Shown piece by piece: positions 49,963 to 61,478 of a stretch of DNA of 64,000 nucleotides. Position 1 is the stretch's first letter. Each line of letters starts with the position of its first letter. Origin of the DNA: Microtetraspora fusca (GTDB lineage: Bacteria; Actinomycetota; Actinomycetes; Streptosporangiales; Streptosporangiaceae). The stretch lies in assembly GCF_001570365.1 (NCBI RefSeq), contig NZ_BBYK01000039.1:399276-463275 (forward strand). The letters run 5' to 3'. The notes under the pieces were generated by a model. It was given only the letters and a program-made list of their open reading frames with translations. It was not told the origin of the DNA and searched no databases. The translations under genes and the position numbers were made by a program.

Positions 49963-50505
49963 CTAGCCCTTCGAGGCCGGCTTCCACTCCTGGGCGAGGA
50001 GCCCGAGCAGCACCTGGTCCAGGAACTCGCCCATCACCCAGGCCGAGGAGCGCAGCACGCCCTCGCGGACGAAGCCGTTGCGCTCGGCGGAGCGCAACAT
50101 CGCAGCGTTGTCCGACAGCGTCTCGATCTGCAGTCGATGCAGGCCGCGCACGACGAAACCGTAGTGGCACAGCACCGCGACCACGTCGGTGCCGTAGCCC
50201 TTGCCGCGGGCCGACGGCAGCAGCCCCAGCCCGATGTGCGCGGACCGGTGGTGGGTGTCGATGCCCCACAGCGTCGCGGTGCCGATCAGCGTGCCGCCGT
50301 CCAGCTCCACCACGGAGAACGGGACGTGCCCTTGCTCCTTGTCGTCCACCACGAGCCGCGAGTCCTTCGAGCCGGGCGTGATCGGCCGCCACGGCCGGCT
50401 TTCAGCCCGCGAGCCGTTGACCACGTCGTCGTAGAGCTCGGTCCGCAGGATCGGGATGTCGTCCTCATGCCGGGCCCTGAGCCCGACTTTGCTGCCTTTT
50501 AGCAC
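49963..50505 (-). CDS. GNAT-family N-acetyltransferase
   Basis: A 180-residue acetyl-CoA-dependent acetyltransferase of the RimJ/RimL-like branch. It starts MLKGSKVGLRARHEDDIPIL; the acetyl-CoA loop is LGLLPSARGKGYGTDVV and the B motif is HRLQIETLSDNAAMLRSAERNGFVREG (quoted in parts). GTG 50505 follows AGGAAGCTTGG. The stop codon abuts repeat copy B, so the C-terminus (LAQEWKPASKG) may have been set by that insertion. Confidence 0.85.
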   Translation of the reverse strand: MLKGSKVGLRARHEDDIPILRTELYDDVVNGSRAESRPWRPITPGSKDSRLVVDDKEQGHVPFSVVELDGGTLIGTATLWGIDTHHRSAHIGLGLLPSARGKGYGTDVVAVLCHYGFVVRGLHRLQIETLSDNAAMLRSAERNGFVREGVLRSSAWVMGEFLDQVLLGLLAQEWKPASKG

Positions 50506-50812
50506 CCAAGCTTCCTATCCGGCCAGGCTGGTCGGCGGCAAACAAATTAGCGGGAGTTTCGCCCTGGATTCGGCCGAACAGCGGAGGTGCATGGGCCTGT
50601 TGATGCGGAGCGGCCATGCGCGGGAAGACCGAGTTGGGAGGGTTGGGAGCTACCGGCCAGGTTCGACGGTGCTGTGCGGTCAGCTCGGGTTTCCGGTCAG
50701 GCACCGTTCGCGATGCTCTCCTGTTTCGTGCGACTCCTTCGGGCAGGACTGTCGGAAGCCGCTGTTAGGTTGCTGCACGAGTTGAAACGGCCAGGTGATG
50801 GGGAGAGCGTCG
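50506..50812. other. Intergenic region between two GNAT genes, no gene seen
   Basis: The 307 bases between divergent GNAT genes have frames open by chance only, without a ribosome site or family features. It presumably holds two promoters. GGTTGCTGCACGAGTTGAAACGG near 50770 is the least GC-rich part and may contain the right-hand promoter. Confidence 0.5.
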
Positions 50813-51286
50813 ATGTCAGGTGTGGCGTTGCGGGGTGTTGAGGACGGCGACCTGGATGCGCTGTTCCACCAGATGCGCGATCCCCAGTCGGTTCAGATGG
50901 CTGCCTTCACTTCCAAGGACCCCGACGATCGCCAAGCGTTCGATGCGCATATGTCGAAGCTGAGGACGTCCCCGGATGTCATCCTGCGTGCGGTGACCCG
51001 GGATGGTCACCTGGTCGGCAGCATCGGCAGCTTCGTCATCGACGGGGACACCGAGGTCACCTACTGGATCGACCGCGCGGCCTGGGGGCAGGGAGTCGCC
51101 AGCCACGCTCTCGCTCAGTTCCTTGAGCTCGTCCCCGTCCGCCCGCTGTATGCCCGTGCCGCCAGTGACAACCTCGGTTCGCTCAGGGTCCTGCAGAAGG
51201 CCGGTTTCACGATCATCGGCACCGAGACCTCGTACGCGCCCGCGCGAAACGCTGAAATCGAGGAAAGCATCCTGCGCCTGGGCTAG
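50813..51286 (+). CDS. GNAT-family N-acetyltransferase
   Basis: A 157-residue enzyme, distinct from the GNAT to the left. It opens MSGVALRGVEDGDLDALFHQ. The acetyl-CoA site is YWIDRAAWGQGVASHALAQF, and SDNLGSLRVLQKAGFTIIG is the conserved C-terminal helix and strand. GGGGAGAG sits five bases before ATG 50813. The stop is inside GGGCTAGGCGAAACGAAGAGG, a stretch that nearly matches the sequence at 45069-45091 beside repeat copy A. Confidence 0.87.
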   Translation: MSGVALRGVEDGDLDALFHQMRDPQSVQMAAFTSKDPDDRQAFDAHMSKLRTSPDVILRAVTRDGHLVGSIGSFVIDGDTEVTYWIDRAAWGQGVASHALAQFLELVPVRPLYARAASDNLGSLRVLQKAGFTIIGTETSYAPARNAEIEESILRLG

Positions 51287-52366: not shown

Positions 52367-53581
52367 CTAGCGGCTCTGGGGTTGGGGCACGGTGGTGCGG
52401 CGGCGCCACGTCACCGCGAGGGGGAGGGCGACGATCGTGCCGGCCAGGCCGTACGTCGCGATCGCGGCCGGCGGGCCGGTGAGGTCGGCCAGCGGGCCGC
52501 TGAGCAGCACGCCGACGCCCTGCGCGGCGGTGAGCGCCGAGGCGGCCACGCCGACCGTCTGGCCGCGCCGTTCCGGCGGGGCGGCACGGACGAACTCCGC
52601 ATTGGCGATCACCTGGTAAGCCGACAGGACGCCGGTCAGGAACCACGCGGCGGCGGAGACCGCCGTGCCCGGTCCGTACGCGCTGACCACGAGCGGCAGG
52701 CAGGAGACCACCGCCAGCGGTGCCAGCGCGGGCAACCCGGCCGACAGCCGGTTGACCAGATACATCCCCACCACGCTGCCGGCGGGGATGGCACACAGCA
52801 GGATGCCCGCCTCGACGGTCCCGCCGCCCAGGGCGCCCGCATACGGTACGGCCAGTCCCTCGGGAGCGATGGAGAAGGTGGCGAGGAGCGCGAACGCGAG
52901 CAGACCGCGCAGCCTCCGGTCCCTGACGATCAGACCGACGCCGGTCGCCATCTCGCCCAGTGAGACGACCCGGCCGGTGCGTGAGGCCGGCCGTTCCTTG
53001 ACGCCTGTCGCCACCACCAGCGCGGCCAGGGCGAAGGAGAGAGCGTTGAGGCCCAGCGCCGCGTGTGGGCCGATGGCGGTGACGATCAGACCGCCCACCC
53101 CGAACCCGACCAGCATGGTGAGCTGCGAGGTCATCTGAGCGAGCGTGACCCCTGTGACGTAGAGCCGGGCGTCGAGCACGTCGGGCGTGGTGGCGATCCG
53201 CGCGGTCTTCTCCGGCGCGTCGATCAGCTGGACGGTGAAGAGGAGCACGCACAGGACCGGGAAGGGGACCTGCGGAACGGCCATGATCCCCACCAACAGC
53301 GCCCTGGCCACATCACAGGCGATCATCAGCCGCCGGCGCGGGAACCGATCGGCGAGGCCCCCGAGGAGTGGCCCGCCGATCAGCGAGGGGACGAACGTCA
53401 GCGCGTAGGTGAGGGTGGTCACCGTCGCGGACCCGGTCAGACCGTAGGCGTGCACGGCGAGCGCCACCCGGGCGAGTTGGTCTCCCGCCCGGGAGATCAG
53501 GCCGGAGAGCCACAGACTCCGGTACTCCGGCACGGCGAGCACGTCGCGGAACGTCGCGGAGCGCTCCCCTGTCGCGGCCAT
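52367..53581 (-). CDS. MFS transporter downstream of the heptad-repeat peptide
   Basis: A 404-residue major facilitator with twelve predicted helices, of the MFS_3/EntS-like exporter branch. The signature loop reads GGLADRFPRRRLMIACD, and SLWLSGLISRAGDQLARVAL is the typical first helix. ATG 53581 (MAATGER) has AAGGA upstream. It lies 195 bases after the small peptide gene on the same strand, separated by a strong hairpin at 53601-53634. So it could export the peptide or a product of it; this is inference from position. Confidence 0.88.
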   Translation of the reverse strand: MAATGERSATFRDVLAVPEYRSLWLSGLISRAGDQLARVALAVHAYGLTGSATVTTLTYALTFVPSLIGGPLLGGLADRFPRRRLMIACDVARALLVGIMAVPQVPFPVLCVLLFTVQLIDAPEKTARIATTPDVLDARLYVTGVTLAQMTSQLTMLVGFGVGGLIVTAIGPHAALGLNALSFALAALVVATGVKERPASRTGRVVSLGEMATGVGLIVRDRRLRGLLAFALLATFSIAPEGLAVPYAGALGGGTVEAGILLCAIPAGSVVGMYLVNRLSAGLPALAPLAVVSCLPLVVSAYGPGTAVSAAAWFLTGVLSAYQVIANAEFVRAAPPERRGQTVGVAASALTAAQGVGVLLSGPLADLTGPPAAIATYGLAGTIVALPLAVTWRRRTTVPQPQSR

Positions 53582-53600: not shown

Positions 53601-53634
53601 GGCCGGGTGGCGCGGTGCGGTGCGCCACCCGGCC
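53601..53634 (-). terminator. Perfect hairpin between peptide gene and MFS gene
   Basis: A 13-bp perfect stem, GGCCGGGTGGCGC with GCGCCACCCGGCC, and an 8-base loop. It ends 19 bases before the MFS start. No U-tract follows, so partial termination or RNA stabilisation is possible. Such elements often keep a small upstream gene more abundant than the next gene. Confidence 0.7.
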
Positions 53635-53776
53635 GGGACACGGGATCGTCGGTTCCAGCGCCGTCTTGGAGCGATCACCTTTTATGAAGGTTCACGGTTG
53701 CGCCGACAACTCGGGAACCGAGCGACTCGTCACGCCCGTTCGGATAGGGAGCGCCGTGTATCCGGCGCCGCTACAT

Positions 53777-53860
53777 TCAGATGTCGTCCGGGGCCTGCCA
53801 CACGATGTCCGGGGCGTTCCAGATGATGTCGGGGGCGTTCCAGATGACGTCCTTGCGCAT
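53777..53860 (-). CDS. 27-residue heptad-repeat peptide (WxAP), candidate signal or RiPP-like precursor
   Basis: ATG 53860 to TGA 53777-53779. The product is MRK, then three tandem heptads DVIWNAP, DIIWNAP, DIVWQAP, then DDI. The heptads match a 21-bp DNA period. AAGGAG lies nine bases before the ATG, an excellent ribosome site. Changes between units keep chemistry: ATC to GTG (Ile to Val) and AAC to CAG (Asn to Gln) each need two base changes, which argues for selection on the protein. No signal peptide or helix is visible. It lies between a MFS gene (same strand) and a divergent SARP regulator. I do not recognise the family; no maturation enzyme is nearby. Confidence 0.75.
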   Translation of the reverse strand: MRKDVIWNAPDIIWNAPDIVWQAPDDI

Positions 53861-53915
53861 GACCCATCACTCCTTCGCGATCTCGTTCGCTTCAGGTCAC
53901 AGGATCAGACAACGC

Positions 53916-53945
53916 GGTATACGCGATGTATATCGATCTTGTGAA
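53916..53945 (-). promoter_or_regulatory. Candidate promoter and direct repeats of the peptide gene
   Basis: On the minus strand, TTCACA (53940-53945) and TATACC (53916-53921) are 18 bases apart, giving a start near 53909. Within this stretch the plus strand reads GTATAC at 53917 and GTATAT at 53928, exactly 11 bases apart, the spacing of SARP direct repeats. A third GTATAC is at 53959, about three helical turns away, where it could also be the -10 of the regulator. Confidence 0.5.
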
Positions 53946-54002: not shown

Positions 54003-57000
54003 GTGGAGTTCGGAGTTCTCGGGCCGCTCACCGTGCGAAGCGACGGCGAGGCGATGCCCCTGACCTCCGGCAAGCAGCAGACCCTGCTCGCGGCGTTGCT
54101 CTGCCACGCCAACACCCCGGTCTCTCGGGCGCGCCTCATGGAGGCGCTGTGGGAGGAGCCGCCGGCGTCCGCCGTGGAGAACCTGCGCCTCTATGTACAC
54201 CGGCTGCGCCGCGTACTCCGAGCGCCACAGCGCATCACCAGCCACGGCTCCGGCTACCTGCTGACCGTTCATCCCGGCGAGCTGGACGCGGACCGGTTCG
54301 GCGAGCTCGCCGCCGACGCGGGCCGGGCCCGGGAGGGCGGTGACCTGAACCGCGCGGGCGAGCTGCTGACGGAGGCGCTGGGGCTGTGGCGGGGGAAGGC
54401 GTACGACGACATCGCCCAGACCCCTCTGATCCGCGAGACCGCGGCCCGCCTGGAGGAGGAGCGCCTGCGCGCCGTCGAAGAGCGGGCCGACGTCGACCTC
54501 GCGCTCGGCCGGCACGCCGAAGTGGTGCCGGAACTGACCCTGCTGGTGGAGGAGCATCCGTATCGGGAGGTCCTGCGCCGCCACCTGATGCTCGCGCTCT
54601 ATCGGTCCGGCCGGCAGAGCGAGGCGCTGGACGTCTTCCGCCGGACCCGCTCCCTGCTCATCGAGGAGCTGGGCATCGAACCGGGCCCCGAGCTGCGGTT
54701 GCTGCACGAGGCGATGCTGCGTGGCGACGAGGACCTCTTGTCACCGCCGCATCCGTCGTCGCCGCTCGTTCCCCGGGAACTCCCCGTCGACGTGTACGGA
54801 TTCACCGGCCGGGTGGCTGCGATCGAGGCGCTCGACGAGATGCTGGCGGGTGATCGTGGGGGAACGGGCGCGCCGGTCGCCCTCGCGGTCATCGCCGGGC
54901 CCGCCGGCGTCGGCAAGACCGCCCTCGGGGTGCACTGGGCGCAGCGGATCACGCATCTGTTTCCAGACGGGCAGCTCTACCTGAACCTGCGCGGGTATTC
55001 CGCGGAGCCGCCGTTGCGTCCGCTGGAGGCGCTCACGGTGCTGTTGCGCGCGCTGGGCACGCCCCCACAGCGGATGCCGTCCGACACGGCACAGGCCGCG
55101 GCGCGCTACCGTTCGCTCATGGCGGGTCGGCGGATGCTCGTGTTGCTGGACAACGCGGCGTCCGCCGAACAGGTCCGGCCCCTGCTGCCGGGCGCCCTCG
55201 GTTGCTTCGTGGTCGTCACCAGCCGCGACCGCCTCAGCGGGCTGATCGCTCGGGAAGGAGCGCGGCGGATCACGCTCGACGTCCTCACGCCGGCGGAGGC
55301 CCGGGAACTGCTCGTCTCGTTCCTCGGCGGGCAGCGGATCGCGTCGGAGCCGGAGGCCGTGGCGGAAATCGCCGAACGGTGCGGGTGGCTGCCGTTGGCG
55401 TTGCGGATCGCGGCCGCCCGCCTTGCCGATCGCCCACTGCAGGGGATCGCGGACTACGCCGCGGAACTCGCCGAGGGCAACCCGCTTGCCGCGCTGCAGA
55501 TCGCCGGAGACAGCGGCACAGCTGTACGCGCTGCCCTGGACGGGTCGTACGAGACGCTGTCGTCGGAGGAGCGACGAATGTTCCGACTCCTCGGCATCGC
55601 GCCTGGCATGGACTTCACCGTGGAGGCGGCCGCCGCCGCTTCGGACCGGAGCCTGGACCAGACGGTGCGGCTGCTCGATCGACTCTCGGCCGCGCATCTC
55701 CTCGAGGAGCGAGTGGCGGGCCGCTTCGCCTTCCACGACCTCGTCCGGCTGTACGCACAGGCCCAGGCGAACGCGGAGGACAGCGCCGAGGAGCGGGTGG
55801 TAGCCGTCCGGCGGGTCTACCGGTGGTACCTGTCGGCCGCGGACGGCGCGGCCGACCTGCTCTACTCGCATCTGCTGCGCATGCCTCCCCTTCCCGCGCC
55901 CTCCGTACAGTTCGAGGCGGCCCACGACGCCCGCAGATGGCTGGACGCCGAGTCGGTCAACCTGGTGGTCGCGACAGTTGAGGCGGCCGAAGGCGGCGCA
56001 CCGCGCGAGGCATGGCATCTGGCCATGGCGCTGCGCGGCTACTTCTGGCTGTCCGGCGACGCGGACGCGGCCATGACCACGGCGGACGCGGGTGTCGCCG
56101 CCGCGCGGGCGGTCCAGGACCCGCGGGGTGAGGCCGGGGCCCGGCTCACCCTCGGCCAGACCCTCACCCGGCTCGGACGGGTCGAGGAGGCGTTCGGCCA
56201 GCTTGGTCAGGTCATCGAACTGACGGACCGGCTCGACTGGCCAGAGTGCCGGGCGTCCGCGCTCAGTGCGCTCGGCAACCTGCACCTTGAGCGGGGCCGG
56301 CTTGAGCGTTCGGCCGGCTGCTACCGCCAAGCCCTGAGACTGAACCTGGACCGCGGAAACGTGGCGCTACAGGCAGTGAACCTGGCCAACCTCGCAGTCG
56401 TGGCCCTGCATGCGGGGAACCTGGAGCAGGCCGTGGCGTACTGCGAACACGTGCTGACGCGATACGACATGGCCGGTTCGGGTGGGCACCCCGCCGTCCT
56501 CAACACCCTCGGTCACGCCTGCCATCTCCTTGGCAGGTCCGAGGAGGCACTCGGCCATTTCGAGCATGCTCTGGAGATCTACCGAAAGATGGGGAACTCC
56601 GTTGACCAGCCTCTCGTGCTGGCCGCCTGCGCCACCGTGCACCGTGACGCCGGACGCCGGGAGCAAGCTCTGCGGCAGGCCGAGTCGGCCGTCCACGCCG
56701 CGTGCGGCGCCGGGGAACGGATTCAGGCCGGCGTCCTGGGCGATCTCGGCTCGGTGCACCGGCACTTCGGGCGCCTGCCGTCCGCGCTCCGGTATCTCCA
56801 ACAAGCTCAGGCTGCGGCAGAGGTCGTCGCTGACCGGTTGCTGGGCACGTGGATCCGGATCGAGCTCGCCGCGACCCGCCTCGCGGCAGGCGACGTCGCC
56901 GCGGCCACGGCCGATGCGGAGCATGCTTTGGCCCTGGCGAAGGACGCGGGATATCGCCTGTGGGAAGGCCGGGCGCTGCTCGTCCTCGCCGAGGCCGACC

Positions 57001-57239
57001 TCATTCTCGGAAGGGTCGAACGAGCCGCGGAACGCGCCGCATCGGCGCTCGCTCTGCACCGCGAGACCGGCCACAGCCTCGGCCAGGGACAGGCTCTGCT
57101 GCTGCTGGCCGACGCCGCCCGCCGGGGCCGGGCCGATTCTTGTCGTTCCGCCTCCTACCAGGCCGAGGCGGAACGCATCCTCACCGAGATCGGGTCGTTC
57201 CCGGGCCTCTCTTGTCACCGATCAGAAGCCGGGACATGA
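54003..57239 (+). CDS. AfsR/SARP-family regulator with NB-ARC ATPase and TPR domains
   Basis: A 1,078-residue regulator. An OmpR-like SARP DNA-binding domain is at about 1-92 (VEFGVLGPLTVRSDGEAMPL, LWEEPPASAVENLRLYVHRL), and the BTAD helical domain at about 95-240 (RFGELAADAGRAREGGDL, EELGIEPGPELRLLHEA). An NB-ARC ATPase at about 270-560 has Walker A AGPAGVGKTAL, RMLVLLDN and GWLPLALRIAA. The C-terminus is TPR-rich (about 720-1060: ALGNLHLERGRLERSAGCYR). GTG 54003 follows GGGAG; a longer reading to 53781 is antisense to the peptide gene. TPR sensors often bind peptides, so the divergent peptide is a natural ligand candidate. Confidence 0.93.
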   Translation: MEFGVLGPLTVRSDGEAMPLTSGKQQTLLAALLCHANTPVSRARLMEALWEEPPASAVENLRLYVHRLRRVLRAPQRITSHGSGYLLTVHPGELDADRFGELAADAGRAREGGDLNRAGELLTEALGLWRGKAYDDIAQTPLIRETAARLEEERLRAVEERADVDLALGRHAEVVPELTLLVEEHPYREVLRRHLMLALYRSGRQSEALDVFRRTRSLLIEELGIEPGPELRLLHEAMLRGDEDLLSPPHPSSPLVPRELPVDVYGFTGRVAAIEALDEMLAGDRGGTGAPVALAVIAGPAGVGKTALGVHWAQRITHLFPDGQLYLNLRGYSAEPPLRPLEALTVLLRALGTPPQRMPSDTAQAAARYRSLMAGRRMLVLLDNAASAEQVRPLLPGALGCFVVVTSRDRLSGLIAREGARRITLDVLTPAEARELLVSFLGGQRIASEPEAVAEIAERCGWLPLALRIAAARLADRPLQGIADYAAELAEGNPLAALQIAGDSGTAVRAALDGSYETLSSEERRMFRLLGIAPGMDFTVEAAAAASDRSLDQTVRLLDRLSAAHLLEERVAGRFAFHDLVRLYAQAQANAEDSAEERVVAVRRVYRWYLSAADGAADLLYSHLLRMPPLPAPSVQFEAAHDARRWLDAESVNLVVATVEAAEGGAPREAWHLAMALRGYFWLSGDADAAMTTADAGVAAARAVQDPRGEAGARLTLGQTLTRLGRVEEAFGQLGQVIELTDRLDWPECRASALSALGNLHLERGRLERSAGCYRQALRLNLDRGNVALQAVNLANLAVVALHAGNLEQAVAYCEHVLTRYDMAGSGGHPAVLNTLGHACHLLGRSEEALGHFEHALEIYRKMGNSVDQPLVLAACATVHRDAGRREQALRQAESAVHAACGAGERIQAGVLGDLGSVHRHFGRLPSALRYLQQAQAAAEVVADRLLGTWIRIELAATRLAAGDVAAATADAEHALALAKDAGYRLWEGRALLVLAEADLILGRVERAAERAASALALHRETGHSLGQGQALLLLADAARRGRADSCRSASYQAEAERILTEIGSFPGLSCHRSEAGT

Positions 57240-57527
57240 ACGGCATCAACCCCTTTCCCTTGGCCCGAGGAGTGGATCTGGCCCGGTCGGCACACTTATC
57301 CGGACGGCTGAGGCGTACAAGCTGACCGGCGCCATCTTCACGACCATGCGGCTGAAGACCCTACGCGGTATGGCGACCGTGCCCGCGTGGCGTCTGTACT
57401 TCTCGAACCTTGCTGGCCCGATTGACCACGTCGCGGTCGACGCCCGCCTCCTTGGCGCTCTGGCCCTACCTGACGCCTGTGAAACTCCTTTGCGGTGCTT
57501 GATGTCGCGTGGATAGCGTGGCCGTTC
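57240..57527. other. Intergenic stretch after the SARP gene, nothing recognised
   Basis: About 288 bases with frames open by chance in several readings. Some protein-like text (AYKLTGAIFTTMRLKTLRG) is visible in one plus frame, but no start, ribosome site or family support it. It may be a decayed gene. Confidence 0.4.
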
Positions 57528-58037
57528 GTGACTCCGACCCTTCGCACCGAGCGCCTTGTCCTGGACCCCTACACACCCGAGGACGAGGAGGGTTTCGTCG
57601 CCCTCTTCCAGGACACGCGGGTGACCCGATGGATAGGCGACGGCCCCGCTTCCGAGGCAGAGGACCGGGCCCTGTTCGGGCGGATCTTCACGAAGGTGTA
57701 CGCCCAGGACCTGTTCGACGTATGGGCCGTGCGCCGGGACGGACTGTTGATCGGACATGCCGAGATCAAGCCGACCGATCAGGTCCAGGGCCACGAGATC
57801 GTCTATGCGCTGACGCCCACGGCATGGGGATCCGGCCTGGGCACAGAGCTGGCGGAGGCGATCGTCGCCTACGGCTTCGACGTTCTGGGGCTGGCAGAGG
57901 TGCATGCCACTGTGGCCGCGGAGAACACGGCCTCGCTGGCCCTGCTGGAGCGGATCGGTTTCGAGCACGTCCGGGACATCGTCGAGGACGACGGCAGCAT
58001 CACCCGCGTGTTGACCCGTCGTTCAGTTCGACGGTGA
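57528..58037 (+). CDS. GNAT-family N-acetyltransferase (RimJ/RimL-like)
   Basis: A 169-residue acetyltransferase that opens VTPTLRTERLVLDPYTPEDE, the usual RimJ-like first strand. The acetyl-CoA site is YALTPTAWGSGLGTELAEAI, and VAAENTASLALLERIGFEHV is the C-terminal helix-strand. GTG 57528 was chosen since it aligns with the family start; GTG 57495 is an 11-residue extension. Substrate unknown. Confidence 0.86.
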   Translation: MTPTLRTERLVLDPYTPEDEEGFVALFQDTRVTRWIGDGPASEAEDRALFGRIFTKVYAQDLFDVWAVRRDGLLIGHAEIKPTDQVQGHEIVYALTPTAWGSGLGTELAEAIVAYGFDVLGLAEVHATVAAENTASLALLERIGFEHVRDIVEDDGSITRVLTRRSVRR

Positions 58038-61290: not shown

Positions 61291-61336
61291 TGCGGCTCGT
61301 CCGACCGTCCCTATGCGGCTCGTCCGACCGTCCCTA
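61291..61336. repeat. Two 23-bp tandem copies plus a partial third
   Basis: TGCGGCTCGTCCGACCGTCC CTA occurs at 61291-61313 and again at 61314-61336, followed by TGCGGC. It sits in the 272-base gap between the PAS gene and the small membrane-protein gene, upstream of the PAS start. It is not a CRISPR (no spacers). Confidence 0.85.
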
Positions 61337-61478
61337 TGCGGCGGGGCCTGGCCGGGTACGCGTGGTGCGGACGCCTCTATTCGCGGGAGCGTCGAAGGGC
61401 GACGGCTATTCCTCCGGCCTCATTTCCGCTGTGAAACCCGTTTCTCTCAGCCGGCTCGCACGCGATCGTATTGCGGGG

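Follow-up and report, generated by a model that had tools for sequence, protein, structure and literature searches.

Trp-rich leader peptides are a classic form of short peptide gene, and in leaders of the trpL and cmlA type a short open reading frame (ORF) and a hairpin precede the attenuated gene. In the RRNPP signalling systems of Firmicutes a short peptide adjoins a TPR regulator, and the microcin C exporter MccC is of the MFS type. The microcin C precursor gene mccA is described as a 7-codon ORF with a strong Shine-Dalgarno sequence and, in E. coli, an MR start, and a termination mechanism in the mcc operon raises the mccA transcript over the downstream genes (PMC6495379). Biarylitides derive from five-residue precursor genes that are missed by annotation and are sometimes present in several copies (PMC13417212). 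For the regulators of the SARP type, the published box consists of direct repeats spaced by 11 or 22 bp, of which the final one stands 8 bp from the -10 element (PMC10936776).

Here, we compared with these systems a locus in a window of 64,000 nucleotides from the actinomycete Microtetraspora fusca. A minus-strand ORF of 27 codons (53860–53777, ATG to TGA) encodes MRKDVIWNAPDIIWNAPDIVWQAPDDI, composed of MRK, the heptads DVIWNAP, DIIWNAP and DIVWQAP, and DDI, that is, three fused W-cores (DVIWN, DIIWN and DIVWQ) with A-P linkers. Its Shine-Dalgarno sequence AAGGAG (53870–53875, minus strand) lies nine bases 5' of the ATG and is retained in both sister sequences described below. Start, AAGGAG, heptad translation and stop are exactly as a preliminary description had read them from the sequence, and the 21-bp period claimed there was recovered by Tandem Repeats Finder (period 21, 3.6 copies, 79% matches), with a score of 94 that ranks second among the 85 tandem-repeat rows of the window. 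The top-scoring tandem repeat of the window is a perfect 23-bp repeat with 2.3 copies at 61291–61342. The further statement that each difference between the heptad units needs two base changes holds for I to V (ATC/GTG) and N to Q (AAC/CAG) but not for V/I at heptad position 2, which takes a single base, or for CCC/CCG, which is silent. No family in Pfam or NCBIfam was matched by the 27-codon peptide. On the comparisons that follow, it is the product of a real peptide gene.

Downstream of the ORF on the same strand, an MFS transporter gene (52367–53581, start at 53581; PF07690, PF05977) is the conserved partner at Streptosporangiaceae loci. Its protein shows similarity to MFS_3 and to the H+-antiporter type, and a PDB sequence search with the MFS profile returned nothing at 1e-5. 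On the plus strand, a SARP-NB-ARC-TPR regulator with BTAD, NB-ARC and TPR domains occupies 54003–57239, where the GTG at 54003 replaces the overlapping ATG 53781 of a mechanical ORF list as its start. The nearest NCBIfam model for this AfsR-like protein is the AfsR equivalog NF053617, under whose cut-off it falls (625.8 bits, cut-off 1430), and the match to the RiPP-associated TPR protein HaaT is weaker (324 bits, cut-off 1125). Between the two genes, the minus strand carries a degenerate SARP-type box, TATACAT-CGCG-TATACCG (53901–53932), with an 11-base period and 8 bases before a -10-like GATCCT. A possible hairpin directly 3' of the ORF (approximately 53748–53774, minus strand) was found by eye and is clearer in two sisters, and a strong hairpin, GGCCGGGTGGCGC...GCGCCACCCGGCC (53601–53634, minus strand), stands just 5' of the MFS start in a region with z of -3.79. 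Three GNAT acetyltransferase genes (49963–50505, 50795–51286 and 57495–58037) lie within ~4 kb of the peptide-MFS-SARP block.

Searching 60 relatives with the peptide brought same-genus matches in Microtetraspora sp. NBRC 16547 (G002; MSKDYTWGAPDFVWHAPDYIWM, E=1.6e-5) and M. niveoalba (G001; MRNIVIWNAPDIVWQ, E=0.0065), both upstream of the same MFS gene as in the window; in a third same-genus genome (G003), the peptide match reached merely E=1.39 and the MFS match was not above paralogue level. The window and the two sisters retain the Shine-Dalgarno sequence, much of the flank and the W, A and P positions, with D replaced once in M. niveoalba. Since the window TGA after DDI (53772–53780) aligns with TGG in NBRC 16547, the "-DDI" terminus is, as read from this alignment, a shortened "-D.IWM" end whose last Trp was lost to a stop codon. 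Base changes from the window copy amount to 13 non-silent and 1 silent over 21 codons in NBRC 16547 and to 4 non-silent and 1 silent over 14 codons in M. niveoalba, so that the dN/dS below 1 that had been proposed for the gene was not found inside the genus; tandem copies elsewhere, in contrast, change silently only. The neighbourhood also varies among near kin. M. niveoalba has the peptide and no adjoining SARP, and Nonomuraea pusilla keeps a full-length SARP frame, the box and the MFS gene with no recognisable peptide. In M. malaysiensis (L111; another genus according to the genome collection) a deletion has removed the peptide gene from between SARP and MFS, and the SARP frame stops early, at 640 residues, a possible joint decay.

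Fourteen of 297 family genomes contain the pattern D..W.AP.D..W: our own, NBRC 16547, two true relatives with the peptides MRRDNDWGAPDHEWGAPEHDWGAPEHEWT (G089) and MRRMPAAPDNGWSAPDQGWSAPDTSWGAPDSGWAAPDNGWT (G274), both preceding MFS proteins 50% identical to that of the window, and ten chance-like cases inside other frames. A profile of four heptad peptides matched 12 of 396 phylum genomes, of which the own locus only was convincing; the frames of six other matches were read, and no likely family member was among them. Using the MFS protein as bait, we found upstream ORFs such as MRRDHEWV and MVKDGWSWG, and often several in a row: four in Bailinhaonella (MPQESIRGWDWGRA, MSHRTQWEWG, MRTWEW and MRKRTWDW), seven or eight of the MR..DW. 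type in G218 (MRTTDWL to MRGSDWH), six in G230, and four in G008 (MRIRRDIIWQ, MRVRHDLIWT, MRIRRDIVWT and MRIRRDVIWN). MRDIIWN occurs in both G300 and G249. Because cores like DVIWN, DIIWN and DIVWQ thus reappear as lone tiny genes upstream of MFS (MRDIIWN, MRIRRDVIWN, MRIRRDIIWQ, MRIRRDIVWT), the units in the window are, by their sequence, the same kind of core, fused by A-P linkers. Single tiny ORFs, arrays of separate 6- to 10-codon genes and fused heptads all precede the same MFS, and the relatives share the signature MR...W-x-stop. The preliminary description knew no named family with the heptad, and none was found in our searches either, but the heptad represents one fused variant within a broader MR...Wx family; for that reason the D-x-x-W-x-A-P search suggested there would miss most members. 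Tiny ORFs flank the MFS gene of G094 (L125), with MRKDYSWG before and MRIRREIEWG and MRIRRDIEWG after it, and in G070 (L163) an array of MRRTLDWA, MKREFHWT and MRRSLDWT is divergent from the MFS gene, which is a third layout.

The association with the transporter was quantified with a fixed rule, according to which a tiny ORF has a Shine-Dalgarno sequence, R, K or S as second residue and W as its last or next to last residue. Such ORFs were present at 19 of 26 case MFS loci (40 ORFs) and at 2 of 20 control MFS paralogue loci, where both ORFs are unlike the family. The controls were hand-picked from the lower-scoring MFS matches listed (about 421–450 bits), and G731 (446.9 bits), in which tiny ORFs had already been seen, was left out; its inclusion gives 3/21. 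L128, a case locus at 447.6 bits, does not exceed the controls in score, and the case loci are partly related to each other, hence the independent events are fewer. Among the 40 ORFs, one in N. pusilla (L114) is antisense in the SARP gene and probably spurious, and one of G230 is a longer reading of another. Without the window and L055, L056, L061 and L063, the peptides of which were known before the MFS search, 15 of 21 cases remain positive, and none of the other six, MFS-clade loci that were not chosen for a peptide, has an ORF by the rule. Among these six is L110 with MAKRGFSWH, which fails through its second residue, as the window copy itself fails through the lost Trp. The exporter link claimed at the outset came out strong, as tiny ORFs precede the same MFS clade in several genera. 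Folds 5' of the MFS start were more stable than shuffles (z < -2) in 15 of 26 cases (mean -2.3) and in 3 of 20 controls (mean -0.6), as might be expected if an element for termination or stability separated the peptide from the transporter, comparable to the one that follows mccA in the mcc operon (PMC6495379).

Arrays of the same kind adjoin a different regulator in the wider actinomycetes. A pattern for tiny ORFs had matches in 30 of 341 family genomes (52 rows including overlapping readings) against 8 for backward-pattern controls; many single rows are chance-like, and pattern matches without partner genes, L164 and L165 for example, may be due to chance. The pattern also revealed eight copies of MRSDWG in G062 and four of MRNEWS in G067. 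Across the class it matched 7 of 296 genomes, with one clear array outside the family (G049). All three arrays converge with an MFS gene and diverge from the gene of a GGDEF membrane protein. With the GGDEF protein as bait, 23 of 128 class genomes were matched, and 57 tiny ORFs were counted in 124,389 bases (at 18 of 30 GGDEF loci) versus 0 in 270,298 control bases. They include MRDNTWT in 5, 7, 8 and 5 copies in four genomes, MRDNNWN (8), MRANSWD (5 and 2), MRGWKWS (2) and MRHTSWS (2). Among 15 fetched regions, six (L226, L227, L228, L230, L234 and L239, the last with MRDNKWSR three times) have the layout of MFS, array and GGDEF; in L235 the MFS gene is on the far side of GGDEF, and L236 has just a 50-bit MFS match. 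Five (L229, L231, L232, L233 and L237) combine GGDEF and a tiny ORF with no MFS in the fetched sequence, some of them at contig ends, and L238 and L240 have neither tiny ORF nor MFS. The pattern MR.N.W. gave 46 matches in 10 of 128 genomes and 0 in controls, and the MRGNSWD loci of G831 and G837, found by peptide pattern alone, show MFS and GGDEF in the same layout. The genome of the window has a second locus, L231 (7751–7774 of contig C67), where MRGVTWT is divergent from a GGDEF gene and the 13.5 kb of sequence analysed there contain no MFS match.

Variation within these arrays bears on whether the peptide or the DNA is maintained. In 25 copies of MRDNTWT, which were picked by encoding the peptide, third-position variation is 0.13 compared to 0.52 over the 20 bases after the stop. 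The MRSDWG and MRDNNWN arrays show the same trend, with silent-only changes and diverging spacers, and the four MRNEWS copies are identical. An unrestricted listing of short Shine-Dalgarno-led ORFs in nine arrays brought up no decayed family unit in the eight uniform ones, only the same peptides plus a small number of readings that were longer or unrelated. Where a genome has two MRGNSWD copies, the Ser codon is TCC in one and AGC in the other. The silent-only changes, the lack of decayed units in these listings and the TCC/AGC serine together point to selection on the peptide rather than on the DNA. That the repeats are instead kept as binding sites or as structured RNA, and not for a peptide, is highly improbable. 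Such an element would agree with the near invariance of ORF DNA in some arrays, yet the listed units have start, stop and Shine-Dalgarno sequence, their variation is silent-only up to the TCC/AGC serine, and other lineages swap amino acids while frame, MR and W are retained.

On the regulatory side, a SARP model, which was built from the case SARPs, had a match in the interval -6.5/+5 kb around 11 of the 26 case MFS genes and around 0 of 20 controls, or around 8 of 21 cases without the five loci known beforehand. From the 28 BTAD genes in the 9.02 Mb of the own genome, about 5% per locus would be expected (an estimate). The large SARPs form three groups that are about 30–42% identical between groups and differ in orientation; with L063 and L062, the independent SARP associations are perhaps five. 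AraC-type genes recur at 5 of 26 loci, one of them confirmed by Pfam. Of 10 regions, 5 have 7-base direct repeats that are perfect and recur every 11 bases (shuffle p 0.004–0.016). Four of these come from related loci (three of Microtetraspora and one of N. pusilla), where GATGCT follows the repeats after 7–8 bases (p 0.004 to 0.014), in agreement with the published SARP box rule; in L126 the repeats are perfect but the GATGCT -10 is absent. In the window, with its imperfect repeats and GATCCT, and in L118, L119, L120 and L125, SARP-type repeats did not rise above shuffles. The SARP may drive the window operon through a SARP-type box that is clear in relatives and degenerate here. Of the SARP partnership in the preliminary description, the recurrence at the loci and the repeats before the operon stand, but not its generality: the SARP is a recurrent partner rather than the general one, because arrays in other families adjoin GGDEF genes and N. 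pusilla has a SARP without peptide.

A coding family and its linkage to an MFS gene and a regulator (SARP-NB-ARC-TPR, AraC or GGDEF) are established at the level of sequence comparison, and the layout suggests a peptide secretion or signalling system in which the peptide is most likely exported, with a signalling or bioactive role. Our best explanation, which we consider about evenly poised between right and wrong, is that the window gene belongs, as a multi-unit form, to a family of tiny actinobacterial peptides not described before, with the signature MR...W-x-stop, driven by the SARP, exported by the MFS protein and active outside the cell, likely as a signal. The SARP would turn on the peptide-MFS operon; a high peptide dosage would come from many tandem tiny genes elsewhere and from fused repeats here; the hairpin would lower transporter expression relative to the peptide; and the MFS protein would export the peptide, or short Trp cores cut at the A-P linkers. 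In the weakest step, the peptide would act outside its producer, most likely as a signal to which the local regulator responds. Against this explanation count the N. pusilla locus with SARP, box and MFS but no peptide, the six rule-negative MFS-clade loci, the five GGDEF regions with a tiny ORF and no MFS, the lost Trp and degenerate box of the window, the mainly non-silent changes within the genus and the inclusion of related loci in the SARP counts. A tentative extension would make it a class-wide form of tandem-minigene signalling, with leaderless MR...Wx peptides of 6 to 10 residues, dedicated MFS export and interchangeable receptors. In some families the receptor would be a membrane GGDEF protein that converts the peptide signal into c-di-GMP, in Streptosporangiaceae an activator of the SARP-STAND-TPR type; residues next to the conserved D and W would diversify and set the specificity.

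A bioactive product that is exported fits the data almost as well as a signal does. We regard as somewhat doubtful, though worth weighing at length, a specific version of this, in which the genes encode an antimicrobial, a metal-binding or a RiPP-like precursor, the MFS protein provides export together with self-protection, and maturation enzymes, if any, are encoded elsewhere. Such pathways commonly combine tandem identical precursors with a transporter of their own, for instance the six biarylitide precursor copies described in one Lysinibacillus strain (PMC13417212), and the MFS_3 and H+-antiporter-type similarity of the transporter would agree with it. A Pfam scan of 20 neighbours of 11 loci found FAD-dependent monooxygenase-type genes beside two (L119 and L113) and peptidases beside two, but it recognised no RiPP maturase, in line with the claim that a local one is lacking; a P450 heme-loop motif was found in 0 of 33 loci and not in the 64-kb window, and the recurrent neighbours are regulators (SARP, GGDEF, AraC). 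The regulator is also central to another, unlikely alternative, namely that the peptide is an intracellular ligand of the TPR domain of the divergent SARP and needs no export. It draws on the SARP beside peptide and MFS in 11 of 26 loci, on the restraint of AfsR by its NOD and TPR domains (PMC10936776) and on M. malaysiensis, where the peptide was deleted and the SARP frame shortened together; it is at odds with the full-length SARP frame of N. pusilla without peptide, the M. niveoalba peptide without adjoining SARP and the pairing of the larger set with GGDEF instead. Still less likely is a leader peptide, with translation of the Trp-rich ORF controlling the MFS gene via ribosome stalling and hairpins (attenuation). 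In the window lineage the ORF does lie 5' of the MFS gene, with hairpins between, but this does not hold family-wide: elsewhere the ORFs are convergent or divergent to the MFS gene, divergent from GGDEF, or placed after the MFS gene, in up to eight copies. As orientation varies in this way, a general leader role is disfavoured and was dropped.

If the peptides are exported, as our preferred reading holds, these loci would readily supply actinomycete signals or bioactive peptides. Annotation overlooks such arrays, in which as many as eight genes of six to eight codons each keep the same peptide in all copies and in related species. Their neighbours are regulators of antibiotic production and of c-di-GMP, the input signals of which are a long-standing question, and the layout makes this question testable, since synthetic peptides cost little and the neighbourhood itself names the partner genes. 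Within the literature searched, outside of which most subscription papers fall, seven family peptide strings had no match, nothing relevant turned up on the peptide-exporter-regulator layout and no description of the tiny-gene family was found, which therefore looks undescribed.

Returning to the systems described at the outset, the likeness to microcin C extends to the tiny ORF, the MR start, the strong Shine-Dalgarno sequence and the MFS-type exporter. Microcin C is, however, defined by a C-terminal Asn and the adenylating enzyme MccB, whereas W is last or next to last here and the last residue varies (T, N, G, D, S, W and others); no MccB-type ThiF was found by Pfam among 20 neighbours of 11 loci and eight window proteins. 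Biarylitides resemble the family in their tiny precursors, aromatic residues and several copies but need a P450, and a P450-dependent RiPP was dropped from consideration on the motif search above. AfsR and AfsS likewise pair an AfsR-like SARP with an adjoining gene for a small repeat protein that is preceded by direct repeats (PMC10936776, PMC2267785). Compared by description, AfsS has 63 residues with three 12-residue repeats (PMC2267785) and the window peptide 27 residues in 7-residue units, and an AfsS homologue was rejected. From RRNPP systems the family departs in having no signal sequence, in MFS rather than Sec export and in SARP-STAND or GGDEF partners rather than regulators of the Rap, Rgg or PlcR types. 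Leaders of the trpL and cmlA type are alike in the window lineage, where a transporter gene follows, but elsewhere the tiny ORFs are not upstream and reach eight copies. In our judgement, each of the known systems compared differs from the tiny Trp peptides in a defining feature.
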